From contig JACQXX010000112.1 in assembly GCA_016208495.1 (NCBI GenBank), positions 68,616-129,422 on the forward strand: a DNA stretch of 60,807 nucleotides. Reading direction: 5' to 3'. A program made the translations under genes and the position numbers. The notes beneath the pieces are model-generated. The model was not told the origin of the DNA, made no database searches, and saw nothing but the letters and a program-made list of their open reading frames with translations. Source of the DNA: Acidobacteriota bacterium. GTDB lineage: Bacteria > Acidobacteriota > Blastocatellia > Chloracidobacteriales > Chloracidobacteriaceae. This document shows, piece after piece, positions 4,999-60,807 of this stretch; position 1 is the first letter of the stretch, and every line of letters begins with the position of its first letter.

Positions 4999-5126
4999 GC
5001 TTTATGGGTGATTCATTCCCGATTGTCGCCAAAAGCACGGGCTCCTGGTTGCCACGATAGGCGCCCTGTGGAATTATTGCCGGTTCAAATTTTGATCTTG
5101 AATTTTGTGTGAGGAATAAAACCGTG

Positions 5127-5726
5127 ATGAAGAAGAGTCTGCTTTTCCTGATGCTTGGCCTGGTACTGGTCTTCCCCGTGCTGACCGGATGTAATCCCAA
5201 ATCCAATCAGGCTGTGGCGGTCCTGGAGACGGAATATGGAAAAATCGTCTTTGAATTTTACCCCGAAGTGGCACCGCAACACGTCAAACAGTTTCAGGAG
5301 TTGATCAAACAGGGGTTTTATAACGGGATCGCTTTTCACCGGGTCGAAGCCAATAGTTTAATTCAAGGCGGGGACCCCAACACAATCCGCGGCCCTGAAA
5401 ATACCTGGGGACTGGGCCGTCCTGACCTGAAAACCATTCCGGCTGAATTCAGCAAGAAAAATCACATCCGGGGAACGGTTTCCGCCGCCCGCAAAGGCAA
5501 TGATAACAACAGCGCCACAACGCAATTTTTTATTTGCTGCCGTCCGCATCCAGAATGGGATAACCAGTATTCCATTTTTGGACAGGTCATTTCCGGAATG
5601 AACGTGGTGGACATCATTTCTCAGTCGCCTGTCACCGAAGGCACCACCCGCCCCCAAACCAAAACCATTATTACCAGAGCCTATCTGGATCTGCGCAGCA
5701 ATTATCCGGCAACCCCTGGCCTGTAG
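5127..5726 (+). CDS. Cyclophilin-type peptidyl-prolyl isomerase lipoprotein
   Basis: Catalyses cis-trans isomerisation of Xaa-Pro bonds during folding of exported proteins. The N-terminus is a lipoprotein signal (MKKSLLFLMLGL...) with lipobox LTGC, so the mature protein starts at that Cys and is membrane-anchored. The cyclophilin core shows FHRV, IQGGDPN, a TQFFI block and YSIFGQVISG. The usual FMIQGGD motif reads SLIQGGD here. Start chosen at ATG 5127, about 12 nt after GAGG (5111-5114); GTG at 5124 is an equally good alternative. About 199 aa. It stands alone between a terminator and a large repeat region. Confidence 0.92.
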   Translation: MKKSLLFLMLGLVLVFPVLTGCNPKSNQAVAVLETEYGKIVFEFYPEVAPQHVKQFQELIKQGFYNGIAFHRVEANSLIQGGDPNTIRGPENTWGLGRPDLKTIPAEFSKKNHIRGTVSAARKGNDNNSATTQFFICCRPHPEWDNQYSIFGQVISGMNVVDIISQSPVTEGTTRPQTKTIITRAYLDLRSNYPATPGL

Positions 5727-5728
5727 AA

Positions 5729-6268
5729 ATGAAGAATGAAGAATGAGGAAAGTGGTTAGTGGTTAGTGGTTAGTGGTTGGTCCTTGGTTTTTCGCTCTTG
5801 GTTCTTGGTTCTTCTTTGAAAGTATTGATTCCTAAGTACAAGTCCCCATAAATGGGGGATGGAATTTCGGTGATTCCGAATTGGCTTTCGCCCGGATGGG
5901 CGCCGGACAATAGCCGGTGGTTTGCCGCTTTGGGCACACCACCGGAGCTCCGGTCCGCAGTGGTTTGCGCCCGGATGGGCGCTGGAAGCTGGTTCGGGTC
6001 CCGGTTTTCGTGGAAGTTTCGACTGCTGGCTCACGACTCCTGTTCCAGCGCCCATCCGGGCGCGAACCCGTGATGGCGACTCTGTCCGGTGGCCGCGTGT
6101 CCAAAGCGACACTTGCCACCGGCGATTGTCCGGCGCCCATCCGGGCGAAAACCAATGGTTCTGCCAGCGAGTGGTCGAATTTCATCCCCCTTTTATGGGG
6201 ACTTGTACTAACCACTAACCACTAACCATTAACCACTAAATGGTTTCTTCATTCTCAATTCTTCATTC
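5729..6268. repeat. Nested GAAGAAT and TTAGTGG inverted arrays around a 373-bp insertion
   Basis: Outer arrays are GAAGAAT type (about 5729-5745 and, inverted, 6243-6268). Inside them are TTAGTGG arrays (5751-5780 and, inverted, 6208-6242) and a short TTCTTGG stretch (5795-5815). The 373-bp element sits at the centre. The flanking order matches 56030-56160, which lacks the insertion. Confidence 0.85.
5836..6208. mobile_element. 373-bp MITE-like element, copy 1
   Basis: The ends are inverted repeats starting GTACAAGTCCCCATAAA, perfect for 17 nt and continuing imperfectly to about 33 nt. Direct TAA flanks the element on both sides (5833-5835 and 6209-6211). A second copy of exactly 373 bp lies in opposite orientation at 24949-25321. 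Inside are four 15-nt CGCCCGGATGGGCGC motifs, two in each orientation (5889, 5968, 6048, 6133), which would fold into nested hairpins. There is no transposase. The 3-bp TNA duplication is known for the IS1031 subgroup of IS5; linking this element to such a transposase is inference. Confidence 0.85.
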
Positions 6269-24948: not shown

Positions 24949-25321
24949 GTACAAGTCCCCATAAAAGGGGGATGAAATTCGACCACTCGCTGGCAGAAAC
25001 ATTGGTTTTCGCCCGGATGGGCGCTGGAAAATAGCCGGTGGCAAGTGTCACTTTGGACACGCGGCCACCGGACAGAGCCGCCATCACGGGTTCGCGCCCG
25101 GATGGGCGCTGGAACAGGAGTCGTGAGCCAGAAGCCGAAAATTCGACGAAAACCGGGACCCAAACCAGCTTCCAGCGCCCATCCGGGCGCAAACCACTGC
25201 GGACCGACGATCCGGTGGTGTGCCCAAAGCGGCAAACCACCGGCTATTGTCCGGCGCCCATCCGGGCGAAAGCCAATTCGGAGGAACCAAAATTCCATCC
25301 CCCATTTATGGGGACTTGTAC
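24949..25321. mobile_element. 373-bp MITE-like element, copy 2 (inverted)
   Basis: Same length as copy 1 and highly similar in reverse complement, about 90% or more by eye. Ends are GTACAAGTCCCCATAAA with direct TAA flanks (24946-24948 and 25322-25324). The four CGCCCGGATGGGCGC motifs are conserved in both copies. ORFs on both strands here are palindrome artefacts. The rest of the gap to 25485 is probably the leader of the GAF-kinase gene; no promoter is evident. Confidence 0.85.
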
Positions 25322-27420: not shown

Positions 27421-27570
27421 ATTGGGTTCAGGGTTCGGGGTTCAGGGTTCAGGGTTTGAGGCGATGAAATGACTTGATCCCACTCAAGATGAGGACTGGG
27501 GAACCGGCAGGTACCGCTCAAGGTGGAGTATCTTGCGCTGAACCCTGAACCCTGAACCCTGAACCCTCAT
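27421..27570. repeat. TTCAGGG-bounded intergenic element, copy 2
   Basis: GGGTTCA units (27424-27457) and TGAACCC units (27539-27567) flank a core clearly related to copies 1 and 3, including GACTGGGGAAC and GGTACC blocks. Same orientation as copy 1. It directly follows the GAF-kinase stop. Confidence 0.85.
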
Positions 27571-29674: not shown

Positions 29675-30802
29675 ATGACCACTTCAAGCTTCCCCCCACA
29701 TCTCAAGTGCGTTGCCATTGGCGGCGGCACTGGCCTTTCCACGCTGCTGAAAGGATTAAAACATTATGTGTTATCTGATGGGGAGCAAACGGCAGCCCGG
29801 TCGCATATTCTTGATTCCTTGACGGCGGTGGTCACGGTAACCGATGACGGAGGAAGCTCGGGGCGACTCCGCGAAGAATTCCAAATCCTCCCACCGGGCG
29901 ACATCCGCAACTGTCTGGTGGCACTGTCTGAGGATGAATACCTGCTCTCACAACTGTTTCAGTATCGCTTTCCAGGTGAAGGCAACATCCGGGGGCACAG
30001 CTTCGGCAATCTTTTTCTGACGGCCCTGACCGGGGTCACCGGCGATTTTGTCAAAGCTGTCAAATTGACCAGCGAAGTCCTGGCAATTCGTGGAAATATC
30101 GTCCCGTCAACCACCTCAGATGTCTCGCTGGTGGCCGAACTCGAAGATGGACGCATCATCCATGGCGAAAGCAAAATCACAGCGGCTGGTGGACGGGTTC
30201 GCCATATTCGGCTGGAACCTGAAACCTGTCAGCCATTGCCGGAAACCCTCGACGCCATCCGAACCGCCGACATCATTACCCTGGGCCCTGGGTCGCTGTT
30301 TACCAGCATTATTCCAAACCTTCTGGTCCACGGTGTTGCTGAAGCCATTGCCCAGTCCAAAGCCCTGAAAGTCTATATTTGCAACATTATGACCCAGCCG
30401 GGTGAAACCGATCATTTTTCGGTCAGTAACCATATTGAATGGCTGTTGCGCTACATACCCGCCGGGTCACTTGATGTGGTCCTGGTCAATAACACTCTGG
30501 TGTCCCCTGATGTCGCAGCCAAATACCACGAAGAAGGTGCGCAGCCAATTTACCTCAGGATGGCTTCCGACCTGAGAAATGGGAAATCCGGCCCGGCACT
30601 CCTCTCAGTGGCCGGCTCTGAAACAACCTCTACTTCGATCACAGTTTGCGGAAAACGAATTCCGGTACTGGCCTCCGACCTGCTTGAACAAAGCGAACTG
30701 GCTCGGCACTGCCCAACTAAACTGGCTCAGGCCGTCTTCACCGTTTATCAACAGGCGATGTCCCAACGGCGGAAAGCCCGAACGCTGAAAGTGACAAGAT
30801 GA
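29675..30802 (+). CDS. yvcK: YvcK/CofD-like gluconeogenesis factor
   Basis: 375 aa from ATG 29675; the frame upstream has no homology-like content. The signature GGGTGLSTLLKGLK near the start binds nucleotide sugar, and DDGGSSGRLR and GPGSLFTSIIPNLLV are diagnostic of the family. In Bacillus, YvcK binds UDP-GlcNAc and is needed for growth on gluconeogenic carbon and for cell-wall balance. Here it lies directly before glmU, which makes UDP-GlcNAc, fitting a cell-wall precursor module. The C-terminal KVTR and the TGA stop are formed by the first GTGACAAG units of the following array. Confidence 0.94.
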   Translation: MTTSSFPPHLKCVAIGGGTGLSTLLKGLKHYVLSDGEQTAARSHILDSLTAVVTVTDDGGSSGRLREEFQILPPGDIRNCLVALSEDEYLLSQLFQYRFPGEGNIRGHSFGNLFLTALTGVTGDFVKAVKLTSEVLAIRGNIVPSTTSDVSLVAELEDGRIIHGESKITAAGGRVRHIRLEPETCQPLPETLDAIRTADIITLGPGSLFTSIIPNLLVHGVAEAIAQSKALKVYICNIMTQPGETDHFSVSNHIEWLLRYIPAGSLDVVLVNNTLVSPDVAAKYHEEGAQPIYLRMASDLRNGKSGPALLSVAGSETTSTSITVCGKRIPVLASDLLEQSELARHCPTKLAQAVFTVYQQAMSQRRKARTLKVTR

Positions 30803-31069
30803 CAAAGTGACTGGGTGACAAGGTGACTGGTGACTGGGTGACTGGGTGACAAAGTGACAAGGTGACAAAATCCTTATGAATAGTGAATGAATCACCTTTG
30901 TCAAAAAGTCACCTTGTCACCTTGTCAAAAAGTCACCCTGTCAAAAAGTCACCTTGTCAAAAAGTCACCTTGTCAAAAAGTCACCCTGTCAAAAGGTCAC
31001 TTGTCACCTTGTCAAAAAGTCACCCTGTCACTTTGTCAAAAAGTCACCTTGTCAAAAAATCACTTTGCC
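30787..31069. repeat. GTGACAAG inverted arrays between yvcK and glmU
   Basis: GTGACAAG/GTGACTGG units (30787-30869) are followed by a spacer and about 170 bp of complementary units, many in the 16-bp form GTCACCTTGTCAAAAA (30895-31069). The spacer region 30861-30896 is an exact inverted copy of 14830-14865. The array starts inside yvcK and ends 3 nt before the glmU ATG. Confidence 0.9.
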
Positions 31070-43486: not shown

Positions 43487-43771
43487 CACCCCTGACAAGG
43501 TGACCAGGTGACAGGGTGACAAGGTGACAAGGTGACAAGGTGACAGGGTGACAGGGTGACAGGGTGACAGGGTGACAAATGACAAGGTGACTTTTTGACC
43601 AAGTGACTGGATGATTTATCAGTTCTTTTATTACTTTGTCACCTTGTCAAAAGGTCACCTGGTCACCTTGTCATTTATCACCTTGTCAAAAGGTCACCCT
43701 GTCACCTTGTCAAAAAGTCACCTTGTCAAAAGGTCATCTTGTCACTTGTCACTTTGTCATTCCGTCATCCT
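43484..43771. repeat. GTGACAGG/GTGACAAG inverted arrays
   Basis: About 14 GTGACAGG/GTGACAAG octamers (43484-43613) face complementary units (43633-43771) across a 20-bp spacer. The left array overlaps the LolA-like stop and the right one encodes the C-terminus of the DMT transporter. Full pairing would give a hairpin of more than 100 bp. Confidence 0.88.
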
Positions 43772-48866: not shown

Positions 48867-49002
48867 CCTTGTCACCTTGTCACCTTGTCACCCTGTCACC
48901 TTGTCACCTTGTCACCCTGTCACCTTGTCACCTTGTCACCTTGTCACCTTGTCACCTTGTCACCTTGTCACCTTGTCACCCTGTCACCTTGTCATTTTGT
49001 CA
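48867..49002. repeat. 17-unit CCTTGTCA octamer array upstream of the epimerase
   Basis: Seventeen contiguous 8-bp units, mostly CCTTGTCA with CCCTGTCA variants and one TTTTGTCA, end 23 bp before the epimerase ATG. It is the longest single-orientation array here and lacks an inverted partner. It occupies the position expected of a promoter or leader. Confidence 0.93.
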
Positions 49003-52391: not shown

Positions 52392-53348
52392 ATGAGATTT
52401 TTTACCAAAGTTGTTCTGAGTGCAGTGCTTTTGGCGTTTGGGTTGGTCCCCGGTTGGGGTTGCCAGTTCCCTGAGCCATCTCAAGCAGAACCCGACTTTC
52501 CGATCTGGCAAGCTCCAACGCCACCAGCCAAAGGAAAAACCCGGCTGTTGCCCAAACCAGGCCGAGGTCACAATATCTTCAAAGGTGAAGCCGAACAATG
52601 GCTGGTCGAATATCTCACGCCTGACGAAGTCGAACTCGGAGACCCCGTGATTTCCACTTACTTGAACCAGGTGGTAAATCATCTGACCACGTTTTGTCCC
52701 GAACCAACCCGGCACTTTCAAGTGGTAGTGCTCGATGAGGACCTGCCAGACGCATTTTGCCAGGGAGACGGCAAAATTTATATCACGGTTGGGTTTCTAA
52801 AAATGATGGAAAGTGAAGATGAGTTGGCCGGAGTTCTGGCGCATGAGATGGGGCATGAGGCGCTGAAACATATTCCGAAGACACTGAGCCGCCAGTTGCT
52901 CTGGATGATCGGAACCACCAAAATCACGTCCCGCGAACAACTGAATTCAGCTCTTACCCGCCTGTCTGAAAAGTATCAAAAGATACCGGTGGCAGCATTT
53001 ATGGAACGTCTGAGCGGTATCAGCCGGATGGATGAACTCAAAGCTGATCAATGTGCTGTCGCGACACTCTTTCGAGCCGGGTATAACCCACGGGCACTGA
53101 TCACGATTCTGGCACGGGCGGAACGCTACCAAAAAGAAGCCTATGGAAAGGGTTACGGGAAAGCGAAATTTGTTCAGTTCTGGCTTGGTACTCACCCGCC
53201 GACCAGTTTTCGCAAACTGGCGTTCCAACTGGAACGCATGTTTATCAAGCTCCCCCCCAAAGACACACGTTATCCCAGTCAGGCATTTGAAGCCATGAAA
53301 GCGTTGCTTGAAAAAGCTGACGAAGAAGGGGAAGAAAAGGAAAATTGA
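52392..53348 (+). CDS. M48-family metallopeptidase lipoprotein
   Basis: 318 aa. The signal MRFFTKVVLSAVLLAFG ends with lipobox GWGC, so it is lipid-anchored. HEMGHEALKH is the zinc motif (about residue 153) and MDELKADQCAVATL supplies the third ligand. BepA/LoiP-type periplasmic proteases that check outer-membrane proteins have this build, though TPR repeats are absent here. It is last in the plus-strand row after the glycosyltransferases but separated by a large repeat. The C-terminus is Glu/Lys-rich. Confidence 0.92.
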   Translation: MRFFTKVVLSAVLLAFGLVPGWGCQFPEPSQAEPDFPIWQAPTPPAKGKTRLLPKPGRGHNIFKGEAEQWLVEYLTPDEVELGDPVISTYLNQVVNHLTTFCPEPTRHFQVVVLDEDLPDAFCQGDGKIYITVGFLKMMESEDELAGVLAHEMGHEALKHIPKTLSRQLLWMIGTTKITSREQLNSALTRLSEKYQKIPVAAFMERLSGISRMDELKADQCAVATLFRAGYNPRALITILARAERYQKEAYGKGYGKAKFVQFWLGTHPPTSFRKLAFQLERMFIKLPPKDTRYPSQAFEAMKALLEKADEEGEEKEN

Positions 53349-53351
53349 CCG

Positions 53352-53447
53352 GGTGACAAGGTGACTGGATGACAAGGTGACAAGGTGACAAGGCGACAAG
53401 ACGACAAGGGTTTTACTATTTCGCTACTCGCTACCTCGCTACTCGCG
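53352..53447. repeat. GTGACAAG array followed by CTCGCTA array
   Basis: About seven GTGACAAG-like units (53352-53409) follow the M48 stop. A CTCGCTA array (53421-53447) lies 3 bp before the stop of the convergent kinase gene. Both are single-orientation. Confidence 0.82.
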
Positions 53448-55352: not shown

Positions 55353-56018
55353 CTAATCTGAATCAAAAACCTGGAGTCGGCGCAAATAGGTGACCAGCCC
55401 GACCAGATGGTGTTCGGTCTCAAGGATTCGGGCATCCGGTTCGGTTAAGCGATCCTCCCGGGTTGGTTGCCGTTTCAACTCTGGGGTTGGACAAAAAGCC
55501 AGCACGACTTGATTTGCCAGCATTCGCCGGGCGCCGCGCCGCGCCATAATGTGGTTATAAAGCCGCAGCCCATTCCATCCGACAAACACATTGGGCCCAG
55601 GAATAATCGTTGCCGCGGCGGTCACTGGTAAAATGAAGACGTTGAGCAGCACACCTTTGTCATGCACCAGGACTCGTCGCCGTAAAAACAACCGCCATTT
55701 TCGCTCAATAAACCGCTGACTGACCTCGGCGGGATAGACCAGTTCAATTTTGTCAGCCGCCAGTAATTCTTTTAGAAAAGATTCTGACGGATGAATATAT
55801 TTTTTGAGATGCTCCAGCATCCGCCGGATCCACTTCCAGAGGGGACGTTGTGAAGTCTGAACCTGTACCATTGATTCCTGGTACGCCCCCTGAACCCAAT
55901 TCCAGAAGCGATGTGTTTGATTGGACGGAAGTGACTGAAGGTCACTGTCATTGCTTCGCTTCGCCTGTGCAAAAAACACCCATTCCCGGCGATGAATATG
56001 TAAACAGTAAACACGCAT
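55353..56018 (-). CDS. Hypothetical protein, possibly K+/H+ exchange-related (DUF2343-like)
   Basis: About 221 aa. The mid-C-terminal hydrophobic stretch FILPVTAAATIIPGPNVFVGWN, followed by RLYNHIMARRGARRM, recalls the conserved segment of the mitochondrial K+-H+ exchange-related family, which also has bacterial members. That match is from memory and unverified. The first 130 residues are soluble, basic and Trp/Arg-rich. No signal peptide. Start at ATG 56018 is preferred over the upstream TTG. Flanked by a repeat region on its 5' side. Confidence 0.55.
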   Translation of the reverse strand: MRVYCLHIHRREWVFFAQAKRSNDSDLQSLPSNQTHRFWNWVQGAYQESMVQVQTSQRPLWKWIRRMLEHLKKYIHPSESFLKELLAADKIELVYPAEVSQRFIERKWRLFLRRRVLVHDKGVLLNVFILPVTAAATIIPGPNVFVGWNGLRLYNHIMARRGARRMLANQVVLAFCPTPELKRQPTREDRLTEPDARILETEHHLVGLVTYLRRLQVFDSD

Positions 56019-56029
56019 GAACCACAATC

Positions 56030-56160
56030 GAATGAAGAATGAAGAATGAAGAAAGTGGTTAGTGGTTAGTGGTTAGTGGTTAGTTCCTGGTTTTTGGTTT
56101 TTGGTTCTTCTTCGAAAGTATTGATTTCTAACCACTAACCACTAACCATATTCTTCATTC
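56030..56160. repeat. Nested GAAGAAT and TTAGTGG inverted arrays without insertion
   Basis: Order is GAAGAAT array, TTAGTGG array, a TTTTTGG stretch, the 28-nt block 56103-56130, then complementary CCACTAA and ATTCTTC arrays. The 28-nt block matches 5807-5834 at 26 positions, and the following 19 nt are identical to 6211-6229. This is the unoccupied counterpart of the 373-bp insertion site. The array's last unit supplies the stop codon of the next gene. Confidence 0.88.
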
Positions 56161-56605
56161 AAAAGGCTGATCGTTGAAAAGCTTTAGCGCCGTTTTCAGA
56201 CATCAACACCCAAAGGGTGTAGATGGCCAGCGGACTACAAATCAAGGCCCAAATGAGGCCCACAACCGAAAACGCGGATGGCAGTGCTGAAATAATGTTG
56301 ATAATTGCCAGAATGATGGCCACGATTCGGGCCCAATTCTTCAATTTCATCACGCCCCAACCAACCAAAACCGTGAGAAATGACCAGACAATCATCACGG
56401 CCACCAAAACAACCACAATCAAGGTAATGACTCCGACCACACCAGCGGCGGCCACCGAATCCCCGCCTTTTCCTTGAGTCAGCAGGAATGATACCGCCCC
56501 GGCGCCAAAGAAAAAGAACACCACCATCAACACCAGCGAACCCAAGACACCAATCAGTCCAAAAATTACATGGAGAATTCCAACCAGTTTGATATGACCT
56601 TCCAT
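56159..56605 (-). CDS. Small multi-pass membrane protein
   Basis: 148 aa with four hydrophobic helices (about 9-35, 50-75, 62-90, 95-125). No catalytic motif. It resembles small DUF4064/DoxX-size membrane proteins only in layout; I do not assign a family. Start at 56605 is supported by AAGGGGG a few nt upstream. It starts 11 nt after the radA stop, so it is likely co-transcribed with radA and recR. Confidence 0.75.
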   Translation of the reverse strand: MEGHIKLVGILHVIFGLIGVLGSLVLMVVFFFFGAGAVSFLLTQGKGGDSVAAAGVVGVITLIVVVLVAVMIVWSFLTVLVGWGVMKLKNWARIVAIILAIINIISALPSAFSVVGLIWALICSPLAIYTLWVLMSENGAKAFQRSAF

Positions 56606-58745: not shown

Positions 58746-58918
58746 AGGGAGTCGGATGGAAATATCATACCACCAGGGTTCAGGGTTCGGGGTTCGGGGT
58801 TCGGGGTTCGGGGCCAAATAGTCCACGTTGAATGGTACCCGCCAGTTCCCCAGTCTTCATCGTGCGTGGGATCAGTCGCTTCATCGCCGAAACCCTGAAC
58901 CCTGAACCCTGAACCCGA
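58746..58918. repeat. TTCAGGG-bounded intergenic element, copy 3 (inverted)
   Basis: Reverse complement of copy 1 over arrays, core and the right flank (58746-58775 mirrors 138-170). One array has drifted to GGGTTCG units. It lies immediately upstream of recR, so its flank is in the recR leader. Confidence 0.88.
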
Positions 58919-59258
58919 TTTCAGTGGGATTTTATTTTCTTCTGGGTCCCTTAGGGCTCAGGGCTGGGGGCTGGGGCGAAGTTTTAGGGAACCACATTGA
59001 ATCCCGAACCCCTCAACCCCATGAAAAAAAGTGGGGTGTGTCCCGCAAAATTTTTAAACCGGGAAATCACATCAACTTCAATTATTACATAGTACTAATA
59101 AATAGTCAAACCATTGAAAAATATGAATTTGACAGATGATTGACGACTGATCGAAGATGGGCTGGTGTTATACTATTTTGGAATGAACCCATGGTGGTAG
59201 CAAGAGGTTAAGTTGTTGATAGGATTGTATTTCCCTCAACCCTCAGCCCCAAATGGTG
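58919..59258. other. AT-rich gap between ybaB and recR element
   Basis: A short GGGCTCA/GGGCTGG array (58951-58976) and then AT-rich sequence to 59230. No credible ORF, tRNA or terminator. The ybaB stop is at 59259. Confidence 0.35.
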
Positions 59259-60731: not shown

Positions 60732-60807
60732 TAGTCAGTAGTCAGTAGTCAGTAGTCAGTAGTCAGTAGTCAGTAGTCAGTAGTCAGTAGTCAGTAGTCA
60801 GTAGTCA
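60732..60807. repeat. TAGTCAG heptamer array at window edge
   Basis: Nearly 11 perfect TAGTCAG units with no substitutions run to the end of the window and may continue. It starts 21 bp upstream of the aspartoacylase-family start codon. The perfection suggests recent expansion. Confidence 0.95.

Follow-up and report, generated by a model that had tools for sequence, protein, structure and literature searches.

Occupied and uninterrupted paralogues of a heptamer hairpin cassette in an Acidobacteriota genome

The window (the whole 60,807-nucleotide stretch analysed here) contains two members of one family of hairpin cassettes that differ by a single insertion. We are highly confident that the member at 56028-56160 is uninterrupted and that the member at 5727-6264 carries an inserted MITE, here named MITE1; the enzyme that moved it would be of the IS5 type, and the cassette itself may serve at gene ends. 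This work compares the two copies and places them among the other copies of the element, the cassette family and the short tandem arrays of the genome.

Two copies of one cassette

The cassette is a nested palindrome, in which a GAATGAA arm and a TTAGTGG arm are followed by a conserved core, a CCACTAA arm and a TTCATTC arm (Table 1). Positions 5807-5834 and 56103-56130 match at 26 of 28 bases, and across the gap 6211-6229 is identical to 56131-56149 (19 of 19), so that the sole difference between the two copies is 373 bp plus one TAA. These matches and the difference of 373 bp plus one TAA had been reported in an earlier note on this DNA and were confirmed base by base. At the junction, C-TAA-C has become C-TAA-(373 bp)-TAA-C. 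When a 47-mer made from the joined flanks of the occupied site was scanned against the window, it matched 45 of 47 bases at 56103. The next-best place reached 29, the self-overlapping halves of the occupied site (37 and 31) being set aside, and three first-order Markov sequences built from the window reached 25 or 26.

Table 1. Coordinates of the two cassette copies, their parts and the MITE1 copies in the window.
Feature	Position	Strand	Remark
Uninterrupted heptamer-hairpin cassette	56028..56160	.	RNA fold -56.2 kcal/mol (z -8.9); none of 200 shuffles equally stable
Outer left arm, GAATGAA units	56030..56053	+	
Inner left arm, TTAGTGG units	56052..56084	+	
Cassette core: TTTTTGG-like units, then GGTTCTTCTTCGAAAGTATTGATTTCTAA	56085..56131	+	Contains the 12-mer AAAGTATTGATT
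Single TAA, counterpart of the insertion target in the occupied copy	56129..56131	+	
Inner right arm, CCACTAA units	56128..56148	+	
Outer right arm, TTCTTCATTC	56150..56160	+	
Left part of occupied cassette (GAATGAA arm, TTAGTGG arm, core, TAA)	5727..5835	+	
Left TAA of target duplication	5833..5835	+	
MITE1, 373 bp, palindromic, ends GTACAAGTCCCCATAAA / TTTATGGGGACTTGTAC	5836..6208	.	
Right TAA of target duplication	6209..6211	+	
Right arms of occupied cassette (CCACTAA, then TTCATTC units)	6207..6264	+	
Second MITE1 copy of the window, inverted orientation, TAA both sides	24949..25321	.	95% over 378 nt; locus L012

The likeness goes beyond generic TTAGTGG units. Leftward, the homology continues for about 100 nt at 82% (family D13), and a specific core is shared. 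The alignment spans both left heptamer arms and does not continue past the outer GAATGAA / TTCATTC arms; the flanks further out look unrelated. The neighbouring genes also differ, with a cyclophilin-type isomerase (5109-5726) and an ORF without Pfam match at the occupied locus, and a PF10173 protein and another ORF without Pfam match at 56028-56160. The two loci are therefore dispersed paralogues rather than a duplication of a larger segment. The earlier note had called 56028-56160 the unoccupied counterpart of the insertion site, which holds in the sense of an uninterrupted homologue; it is one of about 100 paralogues and not an allelic pre-insertion site. The PF10173 match, a bacterial protein (55353-56027) in a family related to mitochondrial K+-H+ exchange, has an E-value of 6.6e-20.

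Arrays of the same heptamer units are frequent in this genome, and independent expansions in two intergenic regions could look alike by chance. We give practically no credence to such convergence, which is refuted by the core: this part is not tandem, is alike at the 26 of 28 bases given above, and contains the 12-mer AAAGTATTGATT, which has 112 exact matches genome-wide, a few of them as close doublets, against 0 for the reversed control.

The insertion separates the cassette arms by 376 extra bases, and the left part of the occupied cassette alone folds unremarkably (z -1.2).

MITE1, its target and the order of events

MITE1 was found near full length at no fewer than 18 places in the 8.4-Mb genome with 88-100% identity, one of them cut by a contig end; the count is a lower bound, as 18 of 238 first-look candidates were scored. 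Its 14-base end motif has 112 matches at ≤ 2 mismatches, against 34 for a reversed control. For the analysis of the ends, 38 loci (L009-L026 and L047-L066) were considered, of which 10 lacked an end pair and were dropped. The 28 two-ended copies retained have inverted ends and are 31-486 bp long. The shortest, near position 1932 of locus L060, consists of little beyond two fused ends and has TTA on both sides.

Flanking 3-mers are identical in 24 of these 28 copies and unequal in four, which supports the earlier reading of a 373-bp insertion into an existing cassette with a 3-bp duplication. TNA stands at both flanks in 27 copies, C precedes the target in 23 and G follows it in 25, and no 4-bp flanking repeat was seen in the set. 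Three further two-ended copies have flanks TAA/TAA (equal), TTA/TCA and TAA/CAA (both unequal). The target consensus is CTNAG with duplication of the central TNA; at site 5833 the following base is C, a departure from the consensus G. Nearly the whole element pairs with itself when folded (5835-6207, z -15.0). The copy at 5836-6208 holds three overlapping ORFs, none with a Pfam match, and a Pfam scan of the five ORFs from both window copies gave no match at E ≤ 0.01. By every feature tested (size, copy number, inverted ends, target duplication and lack of an ORF with a Pfam match), MITE1 is a non-autonomous MITE.

A special preference of MITE1 for heptamer cassettes was considered and rejected. 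Insertions lie within 30 bp of listed arrays in 9 of 28 cases, compared with 60 of all 931 CTNAG sites (6.4%, p = 4e-5), and the excess vanishes against the intergenic CTNAG background (49 of 224, 21.9%, p = 0.25).

The IS1031 group of IS5 is described in PMC12016507 with a preference for TNA targets and an exclusive 3-bp direct repeat. MITE1 is alike in the TNA on both sides (27 of 28 copies) and in the 3-bp repeat (24 of 28), and differs from IS5/IS1031 in its termini GTACAAGTCCCC, its strongly palindromic interior and the fact that no partner transposase was found. The extension of the target to CTNAG is an observation made here. Given the TNA preference and the exclusive 3-bp repeat, the enzyme that acted is best sought in the IS1031 group, and we do not claim membership of that group for MITE1. 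In the proposed mechanism, a DDE transposase of the IS5 superfamily (IS1031-like, with TNA targets) would act in trans on the GTACAAGTCCCC ends, a staggered cut at the target would leave 3-nt overhangs, and gap repair would yield the TAA duplication.

No transposase with MITE1 ends was found in the draft assembly of 177 contigs, in which the partner may be missing or collapsed. Profile searches returned two matches to PF01609, none to PF13340 or PF13586, and one partial match to PF13359 at a contig start. A loose 12-mer scan (≤ 3 mismatches) near the two PF01609 genes gave five scattered matches, none readable as an element end, and no partner transposase was recognised near the one-sided MITE1 ends when the flanking ORFs were judged by eye. 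Two candidate partners were rejected. No MITE1 ends lie near the PF13359 fragment at C6. The end sequence of the PF01609 IS at the start of C35 (L111) recurs in a MITE1 copy at the terminus of C65 (L054). This IS, apparently situated within that copy at the point of the contig break, looks like a later visitor. In PMC3542288, the name type II is given to MITEs whose genome lacks a matching IS.

A second repeat, MITE2, offers empty and filled sites as well. It consists of TACCAGTTTG, a TAGTCAG array and then CTAAGTTTATTTGATTGAA, ends in CAAATTGGTA, and is mostly 88-110 bp long (L137-L166; L068). Its inner motif has 256 matches at ≤ 3 mismatches, against 18 for the control. Of 42 exact matches listed, 30 were retrieved, and they gave 32 rows in which two sites stand twice. 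Among these 30 distinct places, a CTAAG site within the repeat is vacant in 26 and carries MITE1 in 4. The MITE1 tree includes three of these insertions (L010, L016 and L051), together with a fourth copy at a near-identical site (L017). Their nearest relatives are all different (L009 for L010, L012 for L016, L022 for L017 and L058 for L051), and separate arrivals at the MITE2 site are thus most likely. The empty and filled MITE2 sites are a replicate of the occupied-versus-empty argument made for the cassette.

This replicate bears on the possibility that MITE1 was formerly present at 56028-56160 and excised precisely, which would make the empty state there secondary. Such an event would leave the identical single TAA, and the one pair of loci, taken alone, is compatible with it; this qualifies the otherwise correct reading of the pair in the earlier note. 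We regard excision as very unlikely. An uninterrupted core is the common state in an unselected 461-kb sample (three stretches of C70 and C91 plus the window), where 15 core rows from 14 cassettes run into the CCACTAA array and one core, at 5819, is interrupted by MITE1. With 26 of 30 distinct MITE2 sites empty, precise excision would moreover have to be nearly universal.

Insertion into an uninterrupted cassette also agrees better with the positions of MITE1 than a composite in which cassette and MITE1 moved together and the 56028 copy later lost its insert. The left junction ATTGATTCCTAA is common to L009, L019 and the short L171 copy, as if one occupied core had been copied. However, the MITE1 of L009 is closest (96.2%) to that of L010, which lies in a different repeat, and that of L019 is nearest to L010, L016 and L013 at 93.3-93.5%, not to L009. 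Within cassettes, MITE1 occurs at the boundary of core and right arm in L009 and L019, seven bases beyond it in L018 and L020, and in L015 in the left arm, and we consider the composite highly improbable. Four of the 28 two-ended copies adjoin TTAGTGG arrays (L009, L015, L018 and L020), at three different points, and the nearest relative of the MITE1 in each of the four sits in another kind of site. As MITE1 stands at different points in paralogous cassettes, the cassette was already multi-copy when MITE1 arrived, and the same is true of MITE2.

Cassette family, tandem arrays and gene ends

A similarity search with the cassette returned at least 115 matching pieces (40 of 527 candidates scored). 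At E ≤ 0.001, matches occur in 13 of 162 genomes of the class, this one included, the others having only pieces of 21-48 bases. An exact triple of TTAGTGG occurs in 4 of the 162, again including this genome.

The earlier note had concluded that the cassette was dispersed first. Its prior multiplication is borne out by the different MITE1 positions in L009, L015, L018 and L020; transposition of the cassette itself is not supported. Among 22 TTAGTGG cassettes with both outer arms, flank repeats did not exceed those in shuffled pairings (3 vs 1.65 at k = 2, 1 vs 0.48 at k = 3, none at k ≥ 4). The cassettes could nevertheless be a MITE family whose terminal repeats expanded as heptamer arrays, and thus mobile elements rather than functional 3' elements. 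About 100 copies with a conserved core would fit this, as would MITE2, which looks mobile in the same genome, contains a TAGTCAG array and in one copy (L068) lies in a TTAGTGG array, flanked at each end by TTA. Identical TNA 3-mers flank 18 of 31 MITE2 copies, in a frame picked post hoc after one clear copy in a TTAGTGG array and with no signal at one-base-wider boundaries. The missing target duplication in the 22 cassettes speaks against a mobile origin, and so does the bias of the cassettes toward gene 3' ends, although selection after insertion could also produce that bias. We hold this alternative to be possible, if somewhat doubtful.

Other dispersed repeats were seen alongside. Another dispersed family, at 1-139, 58776-58919 and 27424-27569, is that of GGGTTCA cassettes, which have a similar core (about 80 nt); over 139 nt, the first two show 91% complementarity. 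A repeat with ends like TGCCAGTTAAGAGTTGAA is centred in two TTAGTGG hairpins (C70:189614-189923 and C70:196028-196208, L036), and a repeat with a TGCCAGTTAAGAGTTGAA-like end is also present at L060. Rfam at the gathering threshold found only a tRNA in the window.

To relate arrays and cassettes to genes, gaps of 60-1500 bp between ORFs of ≥ 130 aa were taken from the 461-kb sample. Arrays of 7-9 bp units lie in 113 of 230 gaps, namely in 25 of 45 convergent, 73 of 136 co-directional and 15 of 49 divergent ones (convergent versus divergent, p = 0.02), and 20 of 243 arrays are centred within an ORF of ≥ 130 aa. Among gaps of 150-300 bp, 10 of 11 convergent and 3 of 19 divergent ones hold an array (p = 9e-5); the contrast is weak in the two longer classes (7/15 vs 8/18, and 3/4 vs 2/2). 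Core-bearing cassettes (35 rows, 32 with both neighbours called) are convergent in 18, co-directional in 12 and divergent in 2 cases. Compared with the background gaps, the convergent setting is over-represented (18/32 vs 45/230, p = 2.7e-5), in a test that mixes two ORF thresholds, includes one cassette twice (doubled core, L044) and draws 20 of the 35 rows from loci that had been selected for matching the 56028 copy best. For the divergent setting, the figures are 2/32 and 49/230 (p = 0.054).

In the 12 nt after the detected stem, the T fraction is 0.44 (35 cassettes) and, on the other strand, 0.38 (33 cassettes), compared with 0.27 in intergenic DNA. The T-rich tail has interruptions, and its detection frequently ended a unit too soon, within the arm. 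A terminator scan of 55900-56300 with a loop limit of 8, which excludes long-loop hairpins, did not call the cassette; its one site, at 56245-56261, lies outside it, and shuffled sequences gave 0.5 sites (sd 0.8).

This genome has intergenic heptamer arrays that are complementary and face one another. In the sample taken from it, 61 neighbouring array pairs lie within 600 bp, of which 15 are exactly complementary, 8 nearly so, 6 same-strand and 32 of other kinds; reshuffling of the units gives 2.5 exact pairs. The purine-rich unit comes first in 21 of the 23 complementary pairs. The main units are TTAGTGG, GGGTTCA, GAATGAA, TAGTCAG and TGACAAGG. Convergent placement, T-rich tails and complementary array pairs together favour a bidirectional gene-end hairpin. 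Transcribed from either strand, the cassette would form a long hairpin with a somewhat U-rich stretch after it and, lying mostly at gene 3' ends, is predicted from its sequence and placement to be probably a bidirectional transcription terminator or 3'-end stabiliser.

In 169 kb of a genome of another genus of the same family (G001), arrays of 7-9 bp units number 243 per Mb; the figure for 400 kb of our genome is 345 per Mb. The G001 arrays (L091-L100) have the same bracket form and mostly other units, with ACTGAGG the most frequent and AACCCTG shared. Of 17 neighbouring pairs there, 7 are exactly complementary, where reshuffling gives 1.3, another 3 are nearly so, and 9 of these 10 begin with the purine-rich unit. 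The GGGTTCA triple, with 1198 occurrences in our genome and 762 in G001, is present in a total of 7 of the 162 genomes of the class, ours included. Elsewhere, no 7-9 bp array was found in 40 kb of G003. Among 20 further genome samples, all small (1.5-20 kb), 13 had none and five one each, while 2 were found in 8.5 kb of G134 and 5 in 20 kb of G033, built from different kinds of unit.

Among 38 distinct 7- and 8-mer units of our genome, 27 contain a stop codon on one strand, against 18.5 with permuted letters, a value reached in 0 of 500 permutations; in G001, 8 of 14 units do (6.6 permuted, reached in 131 of 500, not significant), and the units are not independent. For stop-containing units, three heptamers in tandem put a stop in all frames. 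Octamer arrays of TGACAAGG / CCTTGTCA, in places as inverted pairs, lie at 30792-31067, 43493-43759, 48867-49002 and 53346-53409, and a perfect TAGTCAG array of about 11 copies (60732-60807) reaches the window end.

Known repeat systems and significance

REP and REPIN are high-copy intergenic palindromes. The palindromes described here are alike in copy number and placement and differ in that their arms are heptamer arrays.

In Xanthomonas, GGGAATC heptamer arrays form 70 and 75 convergent inverted pairs capable of stem-loop formation, lie nearer the upstream ORF, and are found between convergent ORFs for 16% and between divergent ORFs for 7-8% of the repeats (PMC4692102). Both systems consist of intergenic purine-rich heptamer arrays in inverted pairs; GGGAATC is not among the main units of our genome. 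As described in that source, Xanthomonas has one unit family, whereas here many unit families (7, 8 and 9 bp) occur in one genome, in about half of the sampled gaps, with nested arms, conserved cores and inserted MITEs. In marine Beggiatoaceae, 169 sets of TAACTGA heptamer repeats, mostly intergenic and of unknown origin, are direct with one inverted exception and stand mostly just upstream of start codons (PMC4679880), in contrast to the inverted arrays here. BrickBuilt of Porphyromonas gingivalis, a minisatellite inside a MITE that is always intergenic (23-bp unit, 19 copies; PMC4596501), parallels MITE2 as a tandem repeat within a MITE, the unit of MITE2 being a heptamer.

Among the papers listed in our literature searches, none was seen that describes many unit families spread over half the gaps of one genome or that reports such repeats for Acidobacteriota. 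Paired inverted intergenic heptamer arrays are already known from Xanthomonas, and the mechanism of the MITE insertion is ordinary; the repeat landscape is unusual.

The pair of loci demonstrates transposition within one genome without a second strain, as occupied and empty paralogues reveal the target, the duplication and the order of events. The wider setting, with arrays in 113 of 230 gaps and a sister genus of the same architecture and mostly other units, matters more than the insertion. Speculatively, and as a picture that we consider rather unlikely in its entirety, this lineage would bracket about half of its intergenic regions with inverted heptamers as bidirectional gene-end signals; the period of seven would be kept while the units were largely replaced between genera, the hairpin architecture rather than the letters would be under selection, and families would have spread in part as passengers in TNA-targeting MITEs. 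This genome and the sister genus lend themselves to the questions why so many bacterial tandem repeats have a seven-base unit and whether arrays in palindromic form act as gene ends.
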